From Deltaproteobacteria bacterium (lineage in GTDB: Bacteria > Desulfobacterota > RBG-13-43-22): a stretch of DNA of 39,893 bases. Each line of letters starts with the position of its first letter. Positions within the stretch are counted from its first letter, which is position 1. The stretch spans positions 1 through 39,893 of the forward strand of contig JACRBX010000245.1 of assembly GCA_016219225.1 (NCBI GenBank), read 5' to 3'. The notes under the pieces are model-generated. The model ran no database searches, had not been told where the DNA came from, and saw only the letters and a list, made by a program, of their open reading frames with translations. The position numbers and the translations under genes are program-made. Positions 26,980 to 39,893 of this stretch are shown here, piece by piece.

Positions 26980-27312
26980 TCAACCGGCGAAAACGACTTC
27001 CCCTTCATGGGCGTACTCAGCCATCAGGGTGGTTCTGTTTTTATATTCTTCCGGCGTCATGGTAATGATATCCAGGGGCACCATGAATTTTTTGATGGTT
27101 TGGATTTCGGCATTTTTTAATAACTCCACCCTCCGAAAGATATTTTTTCTTCTGAAATTTTCAGAAACCACCACAATATCAATATCACTTTCAGCGGTGG
27201 CATTTCCTTTCACCTGGGAACCAAAAAGGATGATTTTTGACACCCTTACATTTTCTTCCTCCAGTTTTTCCCCAAAGAATTTAGCTACCGCTCTTATTTT
27301 CTTTTTAACCAT
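26980..27312 (-). CDS. MNT-type minimal nucleotidyltransferase, likely antitoxin (110 aa)
   Basis: Nucleotidyltransferase-fold protein with the signature GSQVKGNATAESDIDIVV (31-48): the G-S pair, then D43 and D45; a third acid D80 (VPLDIIT) completes the metal site. In MNT-HEPN modules the MNT protein silences the HEPN RNase, often by adding AMP to it. The start codon overlaps the end of a HEPN remnant in the -1 frame, the usual gene order. Because the HEPN part is truncated, this copy is probably an orphan. The ATG has no strong ribosome site of its own, consistent with former translational coupling. Confidence 0.83.
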   Translation of the reverse strand: MVKKKIRAVAKFFGEKLEEENVRVSKIILFGSQVKGNATAESDIDIVVVSENFRRKNIFRRVELLKNAEIQTIKKFMVPLDIITMTPEEYKNRTTLMAEYAHEGEVVFAG

Positions 27313-28705: not shown

Positions 28706-31567
28706 TTAAAAGTTATATTTCTCCTTGCGCTTTATGAATGCTTCTTTTGAGCCTTCCATGATGTCCAGAACTGCCCTGGTCACTTCGGAGCGATCAAGGC
28801 CCCCCTGGGCACGGCAGGTCCCCTTCCCCCCCCTGGCTTCAAGGGTATAGACTAACTCTGCGTCGCCATTTACCGGAAGATTGGCATTATGGGTAACAAT
28901 AATCAATTGCCGCTGAATCTTGGCTTTACGGAGCATAGGAACCAACTCCTGGTATAAAAATTCGCTGTCGAGCTCATCTTCGGGCTGGTCAATTAAAACA
29001 GGGCCGTGTCCCCGGGCAAGGAGAAGTGAAAGGATGGCCGTATTTTTCTGTCCGGTTGACAGATCTCCTTTCTGAAAAGAACCGGCTTCGGTGTCATCGC
29101 TGCGAAGTAAAACGAGATCGGCTGAATCCGGAATACGCGTCAGTAATAGATCGAACCATTTTTCAGCTTGTTCTTGCTGCACATTCTTGATTGCATCCAA
29201 ATGGTTCTGCACTATACCAGGAAGTTTTGTAGGGGTGCCCATATTCCTTTCCAACCATTGGATCGGATTTCCAGACATCAGAGACGTTTGAGAATTGTTG
29301 ATTTCCGACTGAAAAGCCTCAAAGAGATGTTCCCCAATATTTTCTCCACCTTCCCCGTCCCGGGATTCTCGGTCCCATACCCGGCCTGCCTGAGAACGGG
29401 CATCCGGGGATATCTCCTTCCATTTCTTCAAAAACGCTTCCTTATCTCCTGCGAATATAAGGGATGTTTTCAATATAGATTGTCGGCAGTTTGTGCGGGG
29501 CATGGTATCGCTCGAAACCATTTCATCAAGAATGGCTTTTCGTTTATTGGTTTCATTAAACCAACACTCCGTCAGGTTCTTCAATAGATCATCCCTGTCA
29601 GGCATTTGTTTCCTCTTGACACCAATTTCAGCCTCCTTAGCCCGCACGGCTGCTTGTTTAGCTCGGTGTTGAATTTCGGTCTCTCGCAGTTGTTCGGCCT
29701 CCAATGTGGTCAATCCTTTTTCACTGCAAGCTTGTTGAAATTGTTCTTCAGCCGTTAGGATAGCCTGCTGGGCTTTTTCCCAGTCAGGATGTTTGGTCAG
29801 GGCCTGATCCACATTCCTTCGAAAAGCCCTGGCGGCGGAGCGTATGGCTTCAGCCATACCCTGATAGGCAGCGGTAACTACTTCCTCAACCTGTTGGAAA
29901 TACCTTTTACCAGGAAAAGCGTCCAAACGACTTCCCAGGGGCAAGGGCTCGGTTTCCAATTCTTCGGTCAGTTCTAAAAGCCGGTTCTCCGTTTCAAGTG
30001 ATTTGTTTACCAATGAATCGAGGTACCTTTTTGATTCCTGAGCACCTCGGTGCCTTTTTAGCTCCTCCTGGACTTGTGCCTTAGCCGCAAGTTGGCGGGC
30101 AAGCTCTTCCTCTTTCTGCTTTAAGGAATTTAACTCGGCATCGAGACGTCTAATGGTTTCTTCCATTTTGTGCGCCAATTTCAACTGATCAATAAGTTCC
30201 AGCGATCTTGCCCGATAAGGCTCCAACCGATCAGCGGCCAGACTATCAATGAACTGCAGGAGAGATTGCTGCCGGTCAGCAAGTTGGGTAATTTCCTCCT
30301 GGCTGAAAATGATAGCAGCAAGCTGCCGGAAGACGGTTGGAAGGTCATCTACGTTTCGGCTCTCGATATGGGCTGGTTGTCCATAACCATCGACGACGAT
30401 ATGGTCTTCAAGACCTCCATGAACGACACCCAATTCGATCCGGGTTGAACCTCTAAATGTTCCTCGAAGCCGTTTGACTTGTCTGGCAGCCACATGGTCT
30501 CTTTCATCCATGCCTTCGAAGGTCATCTCCCCCCGCAAGCCAAGGCGCAAGCTTTCGAAAAGCAGGGACTTGCCACTCCCCCGGCCACCTATAATGCAAT
30601 TGAGGTGAGGTGAAAGGACAATGGCCTGGTTTTCTAAAAATTTATTATCTCTAATCCTGATAGTTCTCACCTGCGTATGGGTAACCTGTGGCGGAGTGGG
30701 ATTCAAACTGATCCGGGACTCCGGATCGAGAAAGGCCTGACGTAAAGCTTCGATGGAGGGGCGGGACATTTTAATCCAGGTAAAACGGCACCCCAAGTTA
30801 TTAGGAACACCGGAATTCTCCAATGACTTCCCATCCGATCCGCATATCGGTGCCGGCTGACGATTGGGCTTAGGCCGATTCCATTGTTCATATGAGCCAT
30901 TTAATATCAATCGGGCCTTTTCGGAAAGAGGCCAGGAGTTTACTTCAACACTATAAAGATCAGGATTGTTGATAAAATCCGATATGTTAACAGGATCATT
31001 ACAGATACCATCATTACTGAAAGCATGCGCCGCAATTACAATGCCGCCAATCTCTTTCTGCACTTTATCGAGGACTTCCCTTAAAGACCAGCATTGTCCA
31101 TGATGTTTTGGTTGTTGAGACACGCCGTTAATGAAACGGTCGTTAGCTGCCATACCCATATTCGTTAAAATATCACTAATCGTTTGAAGCCTTTTCCCTT
31201 CCTTAACCGGCTCAAAAAGGCAAAGAACGTGATACCGGATATCCAGCTCAAAGCCTGGAAAGATAACCAAAGGCGCACGTCCTGAGGAATCGGCCGCCGT
31301 CTTGTTTTGTTCGATCACATGGGTTAAAAACCATTTTCTATGGTCAGTTTCAGCACTGAAATTGTGATCCGTTACGGCAATACAATCCAACTCAAGGTCG
31401 TGGCAGTATCGAAGAAATCGGCGGGCCTTTTCCTGAAGGTCCTCCTCTGACCTTGGAGAAAGCAACCGGATGGATGAATCATTCCAATGCCCTGCATCTT
31501 CTGGGGTATGGACATGCAGATCGCACTTAAACCACCGCATGCCCTGATATTCCGGAGCCGTGTTCAT
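28706..31567 (-). CDS. PHP domain-SMC-like ATPase of the TrlF type (953 aa)
   Basis: Large two-part protein. The N-terminal PHP phosphoesterase has DLHVHT (D16, H18, H20), TDHN (D67, H68), E107 in FPGFELD, H113, H181 and CGSDGK near 242-247. From residue 300 follows an SMC/RecF-like ATPase: Walker A GGRGSGKS (327-334), a long coiled-coil region (about 440-720), signature LSTGQKN (837-843), Walker B VLIDQPEDELD near 857-867 and IIVTHNANLP. The PHP domain could hydrolyse phosphodiesters under ATPase control, as in several anti-phage ATPase-nuclease proteins. AAGGAGG precedes ATG 31567. It is linked to type I restriction genes, a common setting for this family. Confidence 0.85.
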   Translation of the reverse strand: MNTAPEYQGMRWFKCDLHVHTPEDAGHWNDSSIRLLSPRSEEDLQEKARRFLRYCHDLELDCIAVTDHNFSAETDHRKWFLTHVIEQNKTAADSSGRAPLVIFPGFELDIRYHVLCLFEPVKEGKRLQTISDILTNMGMAANDRFINGVSQQPKHHGQCWSLREVLDKVQKEIGGIVIAAHAFSNDGICNDPVNISDFINNPDLYSVEVNSWPLSEKARLILNGSYEQWNRPKPNRQPAPICGSDGKSLENSGVPNNLGCRFTWIKMSRPSIEALRQAFLDPESRISLNPTPPQVTHTQVRTIRIRDNKFLENQAIVLSPHLNCIIGGRGSGKSLLFESLRLGLRGEMTFEGMDERDHVAARQVKRLRGTFRGSTRIELGVVHGGLEDHIVVDGYGQPAHIESRNVDDLPTVFRQLAAIIFSQEEITQLADRQQSLLQFIDSLAADRLEPYRARSLELIDQLKLAHKMEETIRRLDAELNSLKQKEEELARQLAAKAQVQEELKRHRGAQESKRYLDSLVNKSLETENRLLELTEELETEPLPLGSRLDAFPGKRYFQQVEEVVTAAYQGMAEAIRSAARAFRRNVDQALTKHPDWEKAQQAILTAEEQFQQACSEKGLTTLEAEQLRETEIQHRAKQAAVRAKEAEIGVKRKQMPDRDDLLKNLTECWFNETNKRKAILDEMVSSDTMPRTNCRQSILKTSLIFAGDKEAFLKKWKEISPDARSQAGRVWDRESRDGEGGENIGEHLFEAFQSEINNSQTSLMSGNPIQWLERNMGTPTKLPGIVQNHLDAIKNVQQEQAEKWFDLLLTRIPDSADLVLLRSDDTEAGSFQKGDLSTGQKNTAILSLLLARGHGPVLIDQPEDELDSEFLYQELVPMLRKAKIQRQLIIVTHNANLPVNGDAELVYTLEARGGKGTCRAQGGLDRSEVTRAVLDIMEGSKEAFIKRKEKYNF

Positions 31568-31637: not shown

Positions 31638-32576
31638 TTAAGGAACTCTGAATCTTCCTTTCAGACTATGCCTATTTGAAGCTGGATCGAATTCTTTCTG
31701 GATATCGTCCCTGTCTTTTCGCCCCAATCGCGTCCAGGTGGTTTGGGAATTCGGGGCCGTAGTGGTATCAAATCCATTTTGCATTCCAATACCAACCAGA
31801 TTGCTGATCAGGTGGCGATCATGAAAATCATCCCAGATAAAAACTTCGATGTCCAATCCAATCTGCTTTAAAGTCTCTGATAACTTTTTTCTGAACGTTT
31901 CCTCCAGATCGGATAGGTTTAATATCTGACGTTGTGATCCTGAACCCCGATAACAGACACGATGTATCTCTATTAAAGGAACAGGGGTCCTACCACCAGC
32001 CTCCTCCAGAAGTTTAATGAACTCTTGGTAATGGCCCCGACCTGGGTCCAGGTGGGGATCAATAAACATGATGGAATTGGCATGTTTCAGCACAAGATTT
32101 AAGGCATTCTTATAATCTTCTATTCTTCTATGTGGCCTGATTGAAGGGCTTCGGCTGGACCACCATGAGGTTGTGGATAGTTTCTGAACCGGAGCTATAA
32201 TGGGTTGGCCTTTGAATAAACCGGAGATACAATCCGTAACGATAATTCCGTTTAGAGGGATTGTCTTGTGACTGGCCAAGGCTTCCTCGCACCATTCCGA
32301 ATCATTAGACGGGAGATTTTGGCCAATGCCCGTATGAAAAATAAGTCGTTTTTGAAGAGCTAATTTTTTAATCAACTCTTTGCCGCGGGGGTGCCATGGT
32401 CTGTGATCATTTACGAATGTTTGAGCCCATTCTCCATTCCAAAGGTTCCGAACGAGCCCTTCCTGAATCAAAACCTCTTTTATATTTTGAAGATGTAAGC
32501 CGCAGGTTTCGACACTTCCATATGAAGTGCCGTCAATAACATCCGGAGTAAAGGCATACTCTGACAACAAGGCCAT
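31638..32576 (-). CDS. PLD-like protein coupled to the AAA ATPase (312 aa)
   Basis: Partner gene of the upstream ATPase: its ATG overlaps the ATPase stop as TAATG (32574-32578), a sign of coupled translation and fixed stoichiometry. The C-terminal half looks like a degenerate phospholipase-D fold: SIMFIDPHLDPG at 168-179 and WDDFHDRHLISNLVGIGMQ at 248-266, where HDRH stands for the HxK part. The N-terminal 150 residues (VETCGLHLQ, FVNDHRPWHPRGKEL) are unfamiliar. PLD-type domains in such pairs can act as nucleases, but I cannot see a full HKD motif, so it may be a binding or sensor subunit. Confidence 0.6.
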   Translation of the reverse strand: MALLSEYAFTPDVIDGTSYGSVETCGLHLQNIKEVLIQEGLVRNLWNGEWAQTFVNDHRPWHPRGKELIKKLALQKRLIFHTGIGQNLPSNDSEWCEEALASHKTIPLNGIIVTDCISGLFKGQPIIAPVQKLSTTSWWSSRSPSIRPHRRIEDYKNALNLVLKHANSIMFIDPHLDPGRGHYQEFIKLLEEAGGRTPVPLIEIHRVCYRGSGSQRQILNLSDLEETFRKKLSETLKQIGLDIEVFIWDDFHDRHLISNLVGIGMQNGFDTTTAPNSQTTWTRLGRKDRDDIQKEFDPASNRHSLKGRFRVP

Positions 32577-34225
32577 TAAAAAATCTCCCGAAGTCCCTCT
32601 TCAAAAAAGCCACCAGGCCAGGCTTTGACCAGCTCCCCATTTTCATTCAAAGGCATCTCTCTGACGATACTCCGGGAGCCATCCGGCTCTACAAACAGGA
32701 CCATCACGTCTTCGGGGCAGACCGGTAAACATCCCTTAGGCAATTTTCCTGCATTTGTTTCCCGCATCCGACGCATAATCCGCAACAACAAATGTTCGCT
32801 ATGGGTCTCAATCAGAAAGCGGTTTCTATTCTCGCCAAGGGCCGATTGAATAAAAACATCGCCAAGATCAGCTTGAATGGCCGGATGAAGATGAATTTCG
32901 GGTTGTTCAATGGCGATAATTTTGTTGTGCGAAGCATAGGCTCCAACAAGGACAGGCAAAACTTGGCTTACCCCAATACCCACATCTCGATGGCTTACCA
33001 CTGTTTTGCTCCGGCGATCAATTAAAATAACTTCTTGAATATCTGACAATTCTTCCTGATTATCTTTCAGTCTATCAAGAATTGAAGGTACTAATTCTCC
33101 AAAGAGATCCCCTTTATAATCCATACCTTCGTATTTTCCAATTCCTGTATATTGCGCTTCGATATCAATAAGGTGATCCCAAAAGTCACGATTTAAATCG
33201 TCTATAGTTAATAAATTCCGAATTGTTAACTCGTAAGGTGTCTGTAGTCGATTCTGGGAAGTAAGCCACTCGTTAACCTTTTCTCGAACTTTTGAATCTT
33301 GTCGGACTACATCCCAGGCATAACCACCGCCAGCAAACCAATTGGGATCATGATGTTGAGAAAAAGCAAGATGCCTGGGTGGATAGGATCTAAGGGGGCC
33401 CAAATATTGAAGACGCAGAAGTTCAGATTCAATATAACTGCTAACCCCCCGGATTAATTCATTAATTGTCCGAGGAATAAAGAACCGCACAGCCGCCGCA
33501 AGATCTTCCTGTCGCCGACCTTTACTAACAGGAAAAAGAGAAGGCTGAGCATCAGGTGTAAAAAAGTCGGTTTTATTTATCCCCGCAGGAAGGAATTTTT
33601 CAACAGAAGCCTCAAGTTCTGGAACGATTTCCGAAATAGCTTCTTCTAGACCTTCATAGTCGGAAGGACGAAAGGTTTCCGTTGTTGTAGACGTTTCCAC
33701 GATAGCCTTTATAACTTCCCTGAAAATCGGATTGTCATGTTCCAGGCGATCCAGTTTCAAGGAACCATCTCTGCGTCTGCTCATGCGAAGAAGGCTATTG
33801 TTATCCCCAAACAGCTCATAAGCAATGATCTCAGGTTTAGCCCCAGATAATGGTCGGCCTTGATCGTCGAGGCTGATCCCAATTGTAACAGTAATCATGG
33901 CCTTTTTAACGGGAGCCAGTAATTCCTGCAAACGCCCTTTAAAATAAGCTGTATCCAATTCTGCAGACCATTCCAACCTGCGGCTTACTTCACGCCTATG
34001 AACAAACTGCCGAAAACCCCCTAAATCTACAGCATCCCCGCCCAAGTTGGACCGATGGACATCAAGTTCCCCGGTCTCCAAGGCATAATGGGCAAAAATC
34101 AGACTATGGAGAATACTCGATTTGCCGGAGCTATTCGCCCCATAGATAAGGGTCAAAGGGCGAATAGGGATGCGTTGGGTATCGGCAAAGGCTTTAAAAT
34201 TTCCGATTGAGATACTTAGCATCAT
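32576..34225 (-). CDS. AAA/ABC-type ATPase with DUF3696-like end (549 aa)
   Basis: ATPase related to the OLD/RecF group. Walker A is GANSSGKSS at 29-37, Walker B-like IIAIEQPEIHLHP at 436-448, and THSEHLLLRI at 474-483. The C-terminal segment ending WPGGFFEE is typical of DUF3696 proteins. No TOPRIM nuclease domain is visible, so nuclease action would have to come from a partner, perhaps the PLD-like protein with which it is translationally coupled. It begins 8 bases after the reverse transcriptase stop. Similar ATPases occur in Gabija-, Septu- and retron-type defence systems. Confidence 0.8.
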   Translation of the reverse strand: MMLSISIGNFKAFADTQRIPIRPLTLIYGANSSGKSSILHSLIFAHYALETGELDVHRSNLGGDAVDLGGFRQFVHRREVSRRLEWSAELDTAYFKGRLQELLAPVKKAMITVTIGISLDDQGRPLSGAKPEIIAYELFGDNNSLLRMSRRRDGSLKLDRLEHDNPIFREVIKAIVETSTTTETFRPSDYEGLEEAISEIVPELEASVEKFLPAGINKTDFFTPDAQPSLFPVSKGRRQEDLAAAVRFFIPRTINELIRGVSSYIESELLRLQYLGPLRSYPPRHLAFSQHHDPNWFAGGGYAWDVVRQDSKVREKVNEWLTSQNRLQTPYELTIRNLLTIDDLNRDFWDHLIDIEAQYTGIGKYEGMDYKGDLFGELVPSILDRLKDNQEELSDIQEVILIDRRSKTVVSHRDVGIGVSQVLPVLVGAYASHNKIIAIEQPEIHLHPAIQADLGDVFIQSALGENRNRFLIETHSEHLLLRIMRRMRETNAGKLPKGCLPVCPEDVMVLFVEPDGSRSIVREMPLNENGELVKAWPGGFFEEGLREIF

Positions 34226-34233
34226 ATTTTTAC

Positions 34234-36333
34234 CTAAATTGAGTTTGCTTCTACCAACTCAGCAATTCTATCCAGTGAATTCTTAACTACCAAAGCTAAA
34301 TCATCCCGTTCTTTTCTCAAAAGCCAGCGGTTTTTTGCTCCCCCTCTGTTATCGTATGGATGAGAGCCGGGAAGTAGGTTACGTCTATTGTGAATTTGGC
34401 GTAACAAAACCGCTTCAGTTGGGTAGTGTCTGTCAAATGGTGATCCAACGGCAATCAGTGTGCCATATCCCACCAACCGGCCACCACCGCTAAGTCTTGA
34501 ATGACCTGGCAGACCTTTTGATTCGAGGAAACTAAAAAACTGACGAACGGTTATGTCATTGAAGCTATCCTGTAAAGCAAGCCACTCTGAGTATGCTGCG
34601 GGAAAACGCGCTTCTGCCTCTATGAGAATTTGTAATGCGTGTTCGTATTCAGTCCCTAAAAGCTGCCTCCAAATTTGAATATTTGCACAACTGTAAAGAG
34701 ATATTAGCCTTTCAGCAACCCAGTCGGTTTCAGTTTGTTGACGGCGGTGGATAACCCCAAGTGATCTTAAAGAATTTCTACATATCGGTGATAAATCGCT
34801 CTGCCGTATTTCCAAGATATTCAGGGATATTCTTCGACGTTGAAGTTCACGGGCTGCTGCAAGCTGCTCCTCCACTGTACCGATCAATAAAGTTTTCGCC
34901 AGACCGTTCGGTTTGAACTCCTTGTCAGGGAAGAAAGGAGCAAGCAATGCCCGACTAATGGGGAGTTCAGAAGCCAATCTTCTTCCTAATCGTGATAAAC
35001 CTTCCACTTCACATCGCATTAGATAATGCATTACACCCCAAGATAGGGCCATGCAAGCCTTACGTTTTTTTACATCGGCACGGGCAAGCTCCAACCCCAA
35101 ACTCAGTTCATTTCGGCATCCCAGTAAGGAAATAACATGCCATATTTCTCCACGTACATACGAGTATGGCAACCCACTTGCCAAGTACTGCAACGCCACG
35201 CGGACAATCTTTCGGCGATAGCCGAAATTAGAAAAGTAAGCGAGAAATGCATCGATGTGTTCCGGATGCCTTGGTAATAGTTTTAGCACTATATTTAGAA
35301 ATTTTCCATCCACAGGAGCACGATACATAACATACCGAAAGCGCGATTTGTCCTTAATCTTTAGCGGCTTGCCTCCAATAGCTGATTTAAGAATTTCGCG
35401 CGCATCTGAAATTGTCATCTCAGGGTCCGAATCTCTTTTCCCTTCAGTTGGGGCGAGACTGGGGAGGGCGCCCATTGCATCTCCCGGAGATTCAAGTTTT
35501 TTAATTTCGAATTTCTTGCTCTGCGGAATCAAGCCTCGGTGACGGCATAGCTGTTCCAACATAATAGCAGTTTGACGTACCTCATTTTCCGTCTTCCCAA
35601 ATAGACGAATATCATCTACATATCGAATATAATTACAACCTGCCTTCAAGAGTTCGATGTCAATCGGCAAAAAGAATGCTTCAGCAAGAAAATCAGAGGC
35701 TATAGGCCCTTGTGGAATACCGTGACCCGTCATTGCAGAACTATCAGCTGCCGACCATTTCTGCAACCATTTACTCACGATATCCCAAGTTTCCGGATGG
35801 GGGTTATGAGGCGACGCGATCCGGATTAAAAGGTCATGGGAAATCGTATCGTAATAGGCTGAGAGATCGAAATGGGCCGCCCATCTATAGCCCTTTGTGA
35901 AGTATTCCACACATTTATCTTGGAAAACACTGTAGGTGGACTGCCATCGCTCTGTAAAGAAGATCGAATCCCCGGGTTCAGTAAGCTTATTGCTAAAGAC
36001 GGTATCAAGCTCAACCCTCTGTCGTTTTGTGCGTAATTTTTGGGCAAATACATTCGCAATTACTTGCAGGAGAATCTGGTCTTCGATACAAAGCAGCGAT
36101 ATCGGACGCTGAAGGCCAGATGGCTTTGGAAGGTAAATTCGTGTGGAATGATTTGGCTGCCATGCCTTCGCGATAAGCTTCTTATGTAAATCCCGAATAT
36201 TCTCATCGACAGCGCTTTCATATACAAGATATAATTCACGGAAAAATCTCTTATATTGGAGATTTAAGCCAGTATTTATCCGCCTCCATGCAAGCTTCAG
36301 ATTCGGAGTTGATACAAAAGATTTCCAGTGCAT
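34234..36333 (-). CDS. Abi/UG-type reverse transcriptase with long C-terminal domain (699 aa)
   Basis: RNA-directed DNA polymerase of the defence-associated (Abi/UG) class. The RT core is in the first 300 residues: RIYLPKPSGLQRPISLLCIED, motif A AHFDLSAYYDTISHDL (D156), GIPQGPIASDFLAE (205-218) and YVDDIRLF (YVDD 238-241). The GIPQGP form and lack of retron (VTG, NAXXH) or DGR (SQ) motifs separate it from those classes. Residues 300-640 are mainly helical and unrecognised. Near the end R-N-L-L-P-G-S-H (about R651-H658) followed by P-Y-D fits a HEPN-type Rx6H motif, as in AbiA. The gene starts 10 bases after hsdS and ends 8 bases before the ATPase gene, so it is carried in the restriction operon. 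Confidence 0.87.
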   Translation of the reverse strand: MHWKSFVSTPNLKLAWRRINTGLNLQYKRFFRELYLVYESAVDENIRDLHKKLIAKAWQPNHSTRIYLPKPSGLQRPISLLCIEDQILLQVIANVFAQKLRTKRQRVELDTVFSNKLTEPGDSIFFTERWQSTYSVFQDKCVEYFTKGYRWAAHFDLSAYYDTISHDLLIRIASPHNPHPETWDIVSKWLQKWSAADSSAMTGHGIPQGPIASDFLAEAFFLPIDIELLKAGCNYIRYVDDIRLFGKTENEVRQTAIMLEQLCRHRGLIPQSKKFEIKKLESPGDAMGALPSLAPTEGKRDSDPEMTISDAREILKSAIGGKPLKIKDKSRFRYVMYRAPVDGKFLNIVLKLLPRHPEHIDAFLAYFSNFGYRRKIVRVALQYLASGLPYSYVRGEIWHVISLLGCRNELSLGLELARADVKKRKACMALSWGVMHYLMRCEVEGLSRLGRRLASELPISRALLAPFFPDKEFKPNGLAKTLLIGTVEEQLAAARELQRRRISLNILEIRQSDLSPICRNSLRSLGVIHRRQQTETDWVAERLISLYSCANIQIWRQLLGTEYEHALQILIEAEARFPAAYSEWLALQDSFNDITVRQFFSFLESKGLPGHSRLSGGGRLVGYGTLIAVGSPFDRHYPTEAVLLRQIHNRRNLLPGSHPYDNRGGAKNRWLLRKERDDLALVVKNSLDRIAELVEANSI

Positions 36334-36343
36334 TATAAATCAC

Positions 36344-37600
36344 TCATCCTAAAACCTTAGCCTGCGCCTCCATTTCAGCCAGGAGTTCTTCCATATGGAC
36401 TTCGCGCCATTTGTGCGTGAGATCACCTGTGAAGGCTTGATGGAGAATGGTTGCAAACAGATTATCTAACATGTTCGAAGAGTTCCTTCGAGAATCTTGT
36501 AATTCAATAAGCCGTAAAATCACATCATCAAATTGTTTTATTTTGGAATTATCCGTGGGATATGAAACTCTAAACCCAAGCACGTCATTGTCCGTGACCG
36601 CAGGATAGGAAGCACCTCTAGCCATGCTGTTCAATGATTCGGTGAACCATCGAAGTCGAGATAAAGTGTAGAGATAGCCAAACCCCTTGTTGTTTCTGGC
36701 TCGGAGTACGCAGAATCCCGTGCTGCAAATCTCGTTGTCAAGCTCAGCAGGAACCAGTGCCGTCGCCCTCAAATAAGGCCTAACCGTTGAAATCAAAATG
36801 TCATTCGTTCGGATGACCTGCCGTGCCCGACTCGGTGCTTCCCGCCCGGCCAATTCCTTAAATTCAACAATTTTGCCCGACTCACCATCTACACCGGAAA
36901 TGTCAACATATTTAAAGGTATTGTCTGGAGAATCAGTAGGGTTTCGCCGCTGAATCCGCTCAACGAGTTCTCCCACAGACACTTTAGGATAAGCATGGGG
37001 ATTCGTGACCTGATCGCCAATTATTTTATAGAAAAGGGCGGGGAGGATGCGGGCGGCTTTGGCATCGGCTTCGGCGCGCTTCTTTCGCAAGGTATCTGCT
37101 TGGTCAAGAATTTCCACAATCCGTCTCTGTTCGGAGATACAAGGTAATGGAATCAGAACATCTTCAAAAAAATCTTGAGGCACTCTTTGTTGTCCAGCGG
37201 CCCCCCTCATCCGCAATTTAGCTTCTTTTCGAAATGTTTGACGGCGGATAAAGTAATGAAGAAATCGAGGATCCAATACGTTCTGGTTGGCTCGAAGTAC
37301 ATGAAACTCGGTCGAACCGAAACCAATATTATTTTTTAACCCGAACGCAAGCGCAGATTTTCCATTTTCCATACATGGAGTAATCTTGGCAAAAAGAACA
37401 TCTTTATTCTCAAAGTATGTAAATCCTTTTTTCACCTCTCCATATGGACGTACCTCTGCCGCTTCAATGACGGCATTTTTTTCTGAAACAGCCATCATGG
37501 GAACGAATGTTATCGGATCATCATCAATTAACTTAATTGATTGGGGACGACGAGGATTAATATCTACAACTTCCGGCATTGGAAACATAGTCCAATTCAT
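36344..37600 (-). CDS. hsdS: Type I restriction-modification specificity subunit HsdS (418 aa)
   Basis: DNA-recognition subunit with two target-recognition domains and two conserved spacer helices. TRD1 ends in IPLPCISEQRRIVEILDQADTLRKKRAEA, the usual hinge; TRD2 begins near PKVSVGELVERI and ends in the helix before LFATILHQAFTGDLTHKW, the normal C-terminal repeat. The ATGA overlap with hsdM (37597-37600) is typical. Both half-repeats are present, so the subunit looks intact and should read a bipartite site. Its target sequence cannot be predicted. RT follows at 10 bases. Confidence 0.92.
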   Translation of the reverse strand: MNWTMFPMPEVVDINPRRPQSIKLIDDDPITFVPMMAVSEKNAVIEAAEVRPYGEVKKGFTYFENKDVLFAKITPCMENGKSALAFGLKNNIGFGSTEFHVLRANQNVLDPRFLHYFIRRQTFRKEAKLRMRGAAGQQRVPQDFFEDVLIPLPCISEQRRIVEILDQADTLRKKRAEADAKAARILPALFYKIIGDQVTNPHAYPKVSVGELVERIQRRNPTDSPDNTFKYVDISGVDGESGKIVEFKELAGREAPSRARQVIRTNDILISTVRPYLRATALVPAELDNEICSTGFCVLRARNNKGFGYLYTLSRLRWFTESLNSMARGASYPAVTDNDVLGFRVSYPTDNSKIKQFDDVILRLIELQDSRRNSSNMLDNLFATILHQAFTGDLTHKWREVHMEELLAEMEAQAKVLG

Positions 37601-39285
37601 CTTACCGTCTCTATTTCCTGAAGTAGCTTTTTCAAACCGGTAGCGATGTCGTTTTCAAGAGCCAGGGTTTCCCTGATTAGATCAGCCGGGTCTTCCTCAT
37701 GAGCTTTTTCGGTAATTTGCGGCTTGTAACGGCCGGCAGCCAAGTTGTAATCGTTCTCCGTAATGACTTCCAATGTTGTCCACCAGCATCGAGATTCATC
37801 GCTTTCTGCTGGTAGAAGGGTCCCGGCTTCCACACCGGGAGGGTTCTTAAAGCTGGATTTTTTATATTTTGTCCATTGAAGCAAAAGGTCAGGAATATCA
37901 TTCCGTTCCGGTGTCTCGGGCCGTCCACCTCCGGAAATTTTGTCCGGGTCATATCCATCGGCCCGGATTTCGTAAAACCAAACCTTTTTATTTTCGCTTG
38001 GATTCTTTTGTTTTGAAATCTTCAATCCTCGATCTGCAATCGACATTGGTTTCCTGAAAACTATGATACCAGTTTTGACACCGGCGTATGGTTTGAAAAC
38101 ACCGGCAGGTAGGGATACCACAGCCAGAAGATCAAAATCTTCCACCAGTTTGCGCCTAAGCTCCAAGTGAGCCGAGGTCGATCGGAAGAGCAAGCCTTCA
38201 GGCACTACCACTGCGCATTGCCCACCGGGGACGAGGGCCTCCATCATTACCCCCAGGAAAAGGAGTTCGCTCTTTTTGGAGTTTGTAGGCAAATCCTTGC
38301 GGATGGATTCTTTAGGGAGCACGCCGGCAAAGGGCGGATTGGAAAGGATCACCTTGTAGCGGCGGATCAAATCATCTTCTGACAGGCCACCCATGTCCGA
38401 TAGGGTGTTAGCCCTTTTGACATTCGCCTGGCGGATACCATGGAGCACCAGATTCATCATGGCTATGCGCATCATTTGGCGGGATACATCGTTGCCGTAG
38501 ATGGATCGTTCCAGGACACCCCAATCAGGGATTTTTTCTCCCGGGCCTTTATGATAGGTCTGAATGGTCGGTATTTCTTTCTTGGCCTCCTCTATTGATT
38601 GCCCCCTTTTCTCCAGCCATTCTTCTCCGTAGATAGGCACTTCCTGGGGTTCCGTTGAATATTTGGCCAGAATGTATTCCACCGAATCGATGAGAAAACC
38701 GCCGGTGCCGCAGGCTGGATCGTATATCGTGTCTCCCAGGTCTGGATCGAGCATGGCTACCATCATAGTCCTGATTTGCCGGGGGGTGCGGAATTGACCG
38801 TTCAGGGCCGATTGTCCCAGGTGAGTCAGGAGATATTCAAAGATATCGCCTTTAACATCCGTTCCGAGTTTTGCAAAGTCGATTCCATCGATTTCATCCA
38901 CCACCTGCTTGAGTACATTGGGATCCATAATTTCCAATATGGCATCCCGGAAATATTCGGCGATTTGGGGTTCCTCCTTAACCAGGGAGGCCATATAAGG
39001 AAAAACCTCGTCCCGTACATAATCGCGAAGATCAGGGCCGCTCTTGAACCGCCACTTGGTCCAGCGATAGCGTTCGGCTTGTTTAGGGAAAAGAAGTCGG
39101 CCATTACCATTGGCGGACTTGCCCAAAAGGCGGGATTTTAATTCCCGGCTCGACTCCTCTTCGTCGAGCAACTTCAAGTAAATCAGATAAGATATCTGTT
39201 CAATATAAGTTACCGGATTGGTAACACCACCGGCCCAGAGGATGTCGGTGATCCGATCCAATTTTCTCCGTAAATCCTGGTTCAT
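37597..39285 (-). CDS. hsdM: Type I restriction-modification methyltransferase HsdM (562 aa)
   Basis: N6-adenine DNA methyltransferase. The SAM motif DPACGTGGFL (189-198) and catalytic NPPF (316-319) are present. The N-terminal helical domain (MNQDLRRKLDRITDILWAGG...YLIYLKLLDE) is the standard HsdM_N. Additional family marks are QFRTPRQIRTMM and IYGNDVSRQMMRIAMMNLVLHG. AAGGAGC precedes ATG 39285, the ribosome site overlapping the hsdR stop, and a 4-base overlap joins it to hsdS. The length (562) is within the family range. With HsdS and HsdR it would form the complete type I enzyme. Confidence 0.95.
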   Translation of the reverse strand: MNQDLRRKLDRITDILWAGGVTNPVTYIEQISYLIYLKLLDEEESSRELKSRLLGKSANGNGRLLFPKQAERYRWTKWRFKSGPDLRDYVRDEVFPYMASLVKEEPQIAEYFRDAILEIMDPNVLKQVVDEIDGIDFAKLGTDVKGDIFEYLLTHLGQSALNGQFRTPRQIRTMMVAMLDPDLGDTIYDPACGTGGFLIDSVEYILAKYSTEPQEVPIYGEEWLEKRGQSIEEAKKEIPTIQTYHKGPGEKIPDWGVLERSIYGNDVSRQMMRIAMMNLVLHGIRQANVKRANTLSDMGGLSEDDLIRRYKVILSNPPFAGVLPKESIRKDLPTNSKKSELLFLGVMMEALVPGGQCAVVVPEGLLFRSTSAHLELRRKLVEDFDLLAVVSLPAGVFKPYAGVKTGIIVFRKPMSIADRGLKISKQKNPSENKKVWFYEIRADGYDPDKISGGGRPETPERNDIPDLLLQWTKYKKSSFKNPPGVEAGTLLPAESDESRCWWTTLEVITENDYNLAAGRYKPQITEKAHEEDPADLIRETLALENDIATGLKKLLQEIETVR

Positions 39286-39294
39286 TAATGCTCC

Positions 39295-39893
39295 TTAAGC
39301 GACTTCCTTTATAAAAACCGATTCATTCATATCTTCGATAATCTCCTTAAGCCCCTTTTCTCCAAATAGCTCTACCCCAAGCCCGGCCGCATTCAGAATA
39401 GACAATGGAGGCTGAAATAAATCCTCCAGCTCGATTCGGCCGCGGGCAATTCCACGGTTTTTGATCAATGAAAGATACTGGGCCTGATTGGGAGTGAGTG
39501 ACTTGGATACCAGCCAGGCCTGAAAATTTTCGGTCAACTCCTCTTCCCGTGGCTTCATTTTCAGGCGGCCCAGGGCGGCCTTGATAAAATCGATCAGGTT
39601 CCCGCCCGGCTTGCGGTAAGCTCGTCGGAGGTTTTCCTCGTTGAAATACATCTCAGGGCGGTTAAGCTTATCGGAAAGTATTTTTTCCTCTTCTTCCGAC
39701 AATAAATCATCCTGCTGAACTTTCTGAATAATCGGGTCCTCTTTTTCAGCGGACCGGATTGTCTTTTCCCAGTTGGTGACATATTCTTTCTTATCGACAC
39801 GCTCTCCTATCGGACCCACGTCAACGTAGGTCACGGCATAAAGCCATTCATCTTCCAGGCCGAGTTCGACAAGGTCACCAGGGTGTTTGGATG
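39295..39893 (-). CDS. hsdR: Type I restriction endonuclease HsdR, C-terminal part (cut by window edge)
   Basis: Open frame from the right edge to TAA 39297-39295, about 198 codons. It has the EcoEI-type C-terminal domain: YVDVGPIGERVDKKEYVTNW, LNRPEMYFNEENLRRAYRKP, GNLIDFIKAALG, LVSKSLTPNQAQYLSLIKNRG and the FQPPLSILNAAG region. Upstream residues (LVELGLEDEWLYA) stay in frame to the window edge, so the apparent GTG start at 39834 is internal. The nuclease and helicase domains lie outside. The gene precedes hsdM with 9 bases between, giving the order R-M-S. Confidence 0.85.
   Translation of the reverse strand, partial: SKHPGDLVELGLEDEWLYAVTYVDVGPIGERVDKKEYVTNWEKTIRSAEKEDPIIQKVQQDDLLSEEEEKILSDKLNRPEMYFNEENLRRAYRKPGGNLIDFIKAALGRLKMKPREEELTENFQAWLVSKSLTPNQAQYLSLIKNRGIARGRIELEDLFQPPLSILNAAGLGVELFGEKGLKEIIEDMNESVFIKEVA

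Follow-up and report, generated by a model that had tools for sequence, protein, structure and literature searches.

A probable HEPN-type C-terminal domain in a UG19-family reverse transcriptase encoded directly behind a type I restriction specificity gene

Described systems closest to the locus

The UG reverse transcriptases (RTs) are an active field, in which both the UG19 family and RTs bearing a HEPN domain (AbiA) are already known. HEPN active sites have been described as an Rx4-6H motif accompanied by an upstream acidic residue, and the AbiA HEPN domain is listed together with restriction-modification (R-M) operons (PMC3710099). In AbiA, the HEPN domain is needed for polymerase activity and dimerisation, shows no RNase activity on the RNAs tested, and leaves phage defence unaffected when its motif is altered (R581A/H588A) (PMC11077055). 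Untemplated synthesis by Class 1 UG RTs is summarised in PMC13174585. The anticodon nuclease PrrC is silenced by its linked type I R-M enzyme (PMC2610378). No functional paper on UG19 was found in the literature searched, where the family stands without a described function.

Family assignment and gene neighbourhood

In this study, we analysed a stretch of 39,893 nucleotides (the window) in which a single open frame, running from ATG through stop, encodes an RT of 699 aa (Table 1). The preliminary description of this gene had recognised a normal RT core with YVDD and GIPQGP, followed by about 400 extra residues. YVDD and GIPQGP were verified in the sequence at residues 238-241 and 205-210, and the coordinates, the residue numbers and the length of the extension given there were all correct.

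Table 1. Positions in the window of the RT gene, its modules and motifs, and the adjacent genes
Feature	Position	Strand	Evidence
UG19-family RT gene, 699 aa (RT, helical-repeat and HEPN-like modules)	34234..36333	(-)	ORF, PADLOC, AlphaFold
RT core, residues ~60-290	35464..36156	(-)	RVT_1 match at residues 69-278, E 2.6e-17; D156, D240, D241 in 74/74
YVDD catalytic box, residues 238-241	35611..35622	(-)	Y238, D240, D241 in 74/74; V239 in 73/74
Helical-repeat (alphaRep/HEAT-like) region, residues ~308-547	34693..35412	(-)	consecutive helices in AlphaFold model
HEPN-like C-terminal domain, residues 555-699	34237..34671	(-)	AlphaFold of residues 536-699
R651-x6-H658 motif (RNLLPGSH)	34360..34383	(-)	R in 73/74, H in 74/74
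H648, 3 residues ahead of R651	34390..34392	(-)	covaries with D589
D589, second long helix of end domain	34567..34569	(-)	covaries with H648
hsdS, type I R-M specificity subunit, directly upstream of RT	36344..37600	(-)	Methylase_S E 2.4e-14; Specificity_I E 8.9e-79
hsdM, type I R-M methyltransferase	37597..39285	(-)	N6_Mtase E 5.9e-49; HsdM_N E 4e-16
Type I restriction subunit, C-terminal part, off window end	39295..39891	(-)	EcoEI_R_C E 6e-28 on 39295-39834; 5'-open frame
AAA_15/DUF3696 ATPase, begins 8 bases past RT stop	32576..34225	(-)	AAA_15 E 1.1e-22

The PADLOC model RT_UG19 (PDLC03756) matches the RT over residues 2-680 (E 7e-134, 445.9 bits), far better than any other UG model (RT_UG21, 210 bits; RT_UG32, 144 bits), and on this profile evidence the window protein belongs to UG19, a known family of RTs associated with defence. 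The same model was matched by all 46 relatives scanned, and 10 distant relatives match it nearly end to end. Membership in AbiA was rejected, since the AbiA model TIGR04499 scores no more than 25.5 bits (cut-off 250), and this over the RT part only, the two RT cores being very distant. In the RT tree the AbiA branches are extremely long and AbiA could not be placed; a search for AbiA in the phylum of the window gave nothing. Genome searches returned 74 distinct full-length UG19 proteins, which are spread over many bacterial phyla and include some from a few MAGs that are labelled archaeal; these formed the conservation sample, in which the C-terminal segments have a median identity of 21%. Viral contigs (IMG/VR) carry two clear UG19 copies (L089, L090) and one weak RT match; the two clear copies have upstream genes of ~113 and 177 aa, with spacing as in a Polynucleobacter locus (L054).

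In the window, the operon order is hsdM, hsdS, RT, AAA_15/DUF3696 ATPase and a gene for a 312-aa protein, all on the (-) strand, with gaps of 10 bases between hsdS and the RT and 8 bases between the RT and the ATPase. UG19 is linked to hsdS repeatedly, though not obligatorily. Of 82 UG19 loci, many of which are on short contigs, 11 have HsdS immediately upstream in the same orientation; among the 38 loci flanked by 3 kb or more on each side, HsdS is immediately upstream in 8, some Hsd gene was found in 15 and none was detected in 23. The hsd-linked RTs range from close to distant relatives: L013 and L041, for instance, share 64% and 24% identity with the window protein in alignment A2. Other UG19 neighbours are MmeI-type, BsuBI/PstI and GmrSD restriction genes, an OLD-like ATPase, Fic and AbiEi. 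One Desulfofustis MAG carries three UG19 copies (L018, L025, L076), each right behind hsdS and each with a match that stops at residue ~405-410; these are broken copies and may reflect an hsd locus that undergoes rearrangement. An obligate partnership between the ATPase and the RT is unsupported: an ATPase similar to it (62% identity) follows the UG19 RT in one other locus only (L010), many contigs being short.

Further genes of the window deserve mention. The 312-aa protein (31638-32576, (-)) overlaps the ATPase stop, has a weak PLD-like match (MIT_C, E 0.039) and might make up a two-gene module together with the DUF3696 ATPase. A TrlF-family PHP/AAA-like protein of this defence island (28706-31567, (-); NF045780, 507.6 bits, cut-off 350) is also similar to anti-phage Ppl. 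An MNT-type nucleotidyltransferase (26980-27312, (-)) is flanked by an AlbA/Schlafen protein and a TtcA-like PP-loop protein; none of the adjacent genes examined was recognised as a HepT partner. An Rfam scan of the window found no RNA family.

The C-terminal domain and its conserved motif

The motif RNLLPGSH occupies residues 651-658, ~40 residues from the C-terminus of the RT, and is followed by PYD. The preliminary description had offered it as a candidate HEPN-type Rx6H site and had left its conservation to an alignment. Taken from a single sequence the motif proves nothing, because composition alone leads one to expect ~1.0 R-x6-H in residues 301-699, and an R-x6-H in one sequence is no more than chance. 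After residue 300, the UG19 family averages 1.9 R-x6-H per protein, and chance Rx4-6H motifs are common enough that a UG21 protein without the end domain (L101) has three of them near its end. For R651-x6-H658 itself, a chance origin is ruled out by near-invariance across the 74 UG19 proteins. H658 is invariant (74/74), R651 is present in 73 proteins with the one exception (L030) having its Arg one residue later, and an Rx4-6H ending at the H658 column is present in all 74, so that the alignment proved the pair essentially invariant. Beyond the RT core, identity of at least 93% is reached only by W555 (74/74), G624 (72/74), R651 and H658, and R651/H658 is the sole R-x4-6-H column pair in the whole protein in which both letters reach at least 40%.

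The acidic residue upstream of the Rx6H is D589 in 56 of the 74 proteins and is replaced by N in the remaining 18. Its covariation with H648 is perfect (56 sequences D/H, 18 N/N, 0 mixed), with four changes of each residue on the tree, which amount to only 3-4 independent pairs, too few for a sign test to become significant (p 0.25). The pattern suggests that D589 and H648 are likely in contact at the active site.

AlphaFold predicts the full chain (47 sequences) with a pLDDT of 91.9 and residues 536-699 with a pLDDT of 96.7 and a pTM of 0.91. In the full model the helical-repeat run lies between the RT core and the end domain, and the end-domain model is all-helical, with helices at 555-576 and 581-605, a small hairpin, and helices at 638-652 and 673-698. 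The Rx6H spans the final residues of the third long helix and the loop that follows, a position between the two terminal long helices of the domain; as modelled, the helix order and the placement of the motif are HEPN-like. Foldseek with the full-length model gave AbiK as the best match (E 1.2e-10), with DRT9, DRT4 and AbiA 8oz7 (E 5.8e-8) also matching. The isolated end domain gave no match with E <= 0.001. Its highest PDB probability shown was that of sacsin HEPN (3o10_C, prob 0.38, TMt 0.50), the highest listed in the viral library was an RNaseLS-like protein (prob 0.66), and HEPN/MNT toxin-antitoxin (HepT complex) chains were also among the matches listed, none of the three being significant. 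RnlA/RNase LS carries a HEPN fold. The matches of the isolated domain are thus consistent with HEPN and are no proof of it. Among 47 UG19 members no Pfam HEPN family was matched at E <= 10, and a search of 35 UG19 genomes with PF18732 found nothing; the absence of a Pfam match does not exclude a HEPN fold because the Pfam HEPN models are narrow subfamilies.

With no significant Foldseek or Pfam HEPN match, the end could instead be the last part of the helical repeat or an unrelated bundle, in which case the Arg and His would assist the polymerase, for instance in binding its DNA product or a priming site. Other UG RTs (L101, L102, L108, L113) do finish in helical repeats without such an end. 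We regard this alternative as quite improbable in view of the helix order with a loop-borne Rx6H, the HEPN or RNase LS-like folds among the highest-probability Foldseek matches, and the AbiA-like H..RN..P.SH signature. The HEPN-like end domain suggested in the preliminary description stood as a predicted helical bundle with a HEPN-like helix order, whereas neither Foldseek significance nor a Pfam HEPN match was obtained. The tail of the UG19 RT is most likely a HEPN-type domain.

The preliminary description had also pointed to AbiA-type RTs. The AbiA motif RNSNPVSH (PMC11077055) and the UG19 motif are nearly the same, each with a preceding H, and hhalign aligned the H-x2-R-N-x2-P-x-S-H of the two in register. 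The AbiA C-terminal domains available for comparison were a thin sample from one genome (L097), a Lactococcus plasmid (L098) and the 8oz7 sequence, the last two near-identical; with query A5, the score was 26.8 for the AbiA profile and 23.1-23.5 for single AbiA sequences, against 21.1 for the highest-scoring of 400 decoys. The margin is smaller with the 74-sequence query, for which one decoy scores 22.58, on a level with single AbiA sequences (22.6-23.2). The resemblance of the motifs is, at the level of the aligned letters, real. The match to the AbiA profile vanished when residues 649-661 were masked, and the two HEPN domains have no detectable similarity outside the motif region. The likeness thus holds for the motif in register and is lost with it; a common origin with the AbiA HEPN domain is unsupported by sequence, as the match rests on the motif region only.

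In the Pfam, PADLOC and NCBIfam scans, no library labelled the UG19 C-terminal end as HEPN. UG19 may not have been annotated with a HEPN domain before, as such a label was absent from these outputs and from the papers searched, a search outside which the main UG classification paper (Mestre et al. 2022, NAR) lies.

Proposed mechanism and comparison with known systems

We lean, at somewhat better than even chances, towards one joint reading in which UG19 is an anti-phage RT that combines an RT, a helical-repeat and an active HEPN domain, acts by RNA cleavage and is guarded by R-M. The protein would be built of three modules, with an RT polymerase core followed by a helical-repeat domain and, at the C-terminus, a HEPN-like domain whose Rx6H is intact. 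It is most likely an RT of the Abi/alphaRep type in which DNA synthesis and the HEPN domain work together. Upon infection, the RT would synthesise DNA; an encoded RNA template is probably not involved, since the flanking genes leave hardly any room for an ncRNA, and synthesis would be untemplated as in other Class 1 UG RTs (PMC13174585). The HEPN domain would pair protomers and, once released, would cut RNA and stop the infection. The linked R-M partner, where present, would restrain the enzyme or trigger it, as type I R-M does for PrrC. Such a PrrC-like guard role is plausible because UG19 genes recur directly behind hsdS, and it is from gene order that we infer regulation of UG19 by R-M.

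The function of the HEPN-like domain could also be structural. As in Lactococcus AbiA, it could be a dimerisation or nucleic-acid-binding module that is needed for DNA synthesis and cuts no RNA, with the polymerase alone providing defence. We consider this possible though doubtful. AbiA, with the same domain order and a near-identical motif, offers the precedent, since its domain showed no RNase activity and was needed for polymerase activity and dimerisation, and since defence was kept with R581A/H588A (PMC11077055). In UG19, however, R and H are among the best-kept C-terminal residues at a median identity of ~21%, and the covarying polar pair D589/H648 adjoins the motif; a purely structural module would be unlikely to keep just these residues. 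The near-invariance of R and H speaks for a role of the site in UG19, whereas the corresponding AbiA residues are dispensable; on the joint reading of an RT with an active, R-M-guarded HEPN domain, the UG19 domain would be an RNase.

A more specific version of that joint reading is rather unlikely, namely a dual-activity defence enzyme whose single chain holds both a DNA polymerase and a live HEPN ribonuclease. The RNase would be controlled by DNA synthesis or by the DNA made, a linked type I R-M complex would act as sensor or lock, and the HEPN site would be essential, unlike that of AbiA. The function of the tail is directly testable, as its two presumed catalytic residues are kept in essentially all 74 relatives: a family-wide HEPN site predicts that H658A kills defence, in contrast to AbiA, where the same motif is dispensable. 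Should this prediction hold, UG19 would be an RT with its output tied to RNA cleavage within one chain, and it would join DNA-synthesising defence with the HEPN toxins guarded by restriction systems.

Compared with known systems, UG19 resembles AbiK, DRT3b and other Class 1 UG/Abi RTs with alphaRep in having an RT core followed by a helical-repeat solenoid, and differs in that the AbiK/DRT3b-type RTs are without a HEPN domain (for AbiK: PMC11077055). In the next-best family, the UG21 representative (L101) is without a corresponding end domain, and judged on very few UG21 sequences the HEPN-like end looks like a UG19 feature. What UG19 has in common with PrrC is a HEPN-type RNase, presumed in the case of UG19, whose gene belongs to a type I R-M locus; PrrC differs in having an ABC-ATPase part and no RT. 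AbiA (Lactococcus, PDB 8oz7) shares with UG19 both the R-M neighbourhood and the order of RT, helical and HEPN domains, an order that is predicted on the UG19 side.
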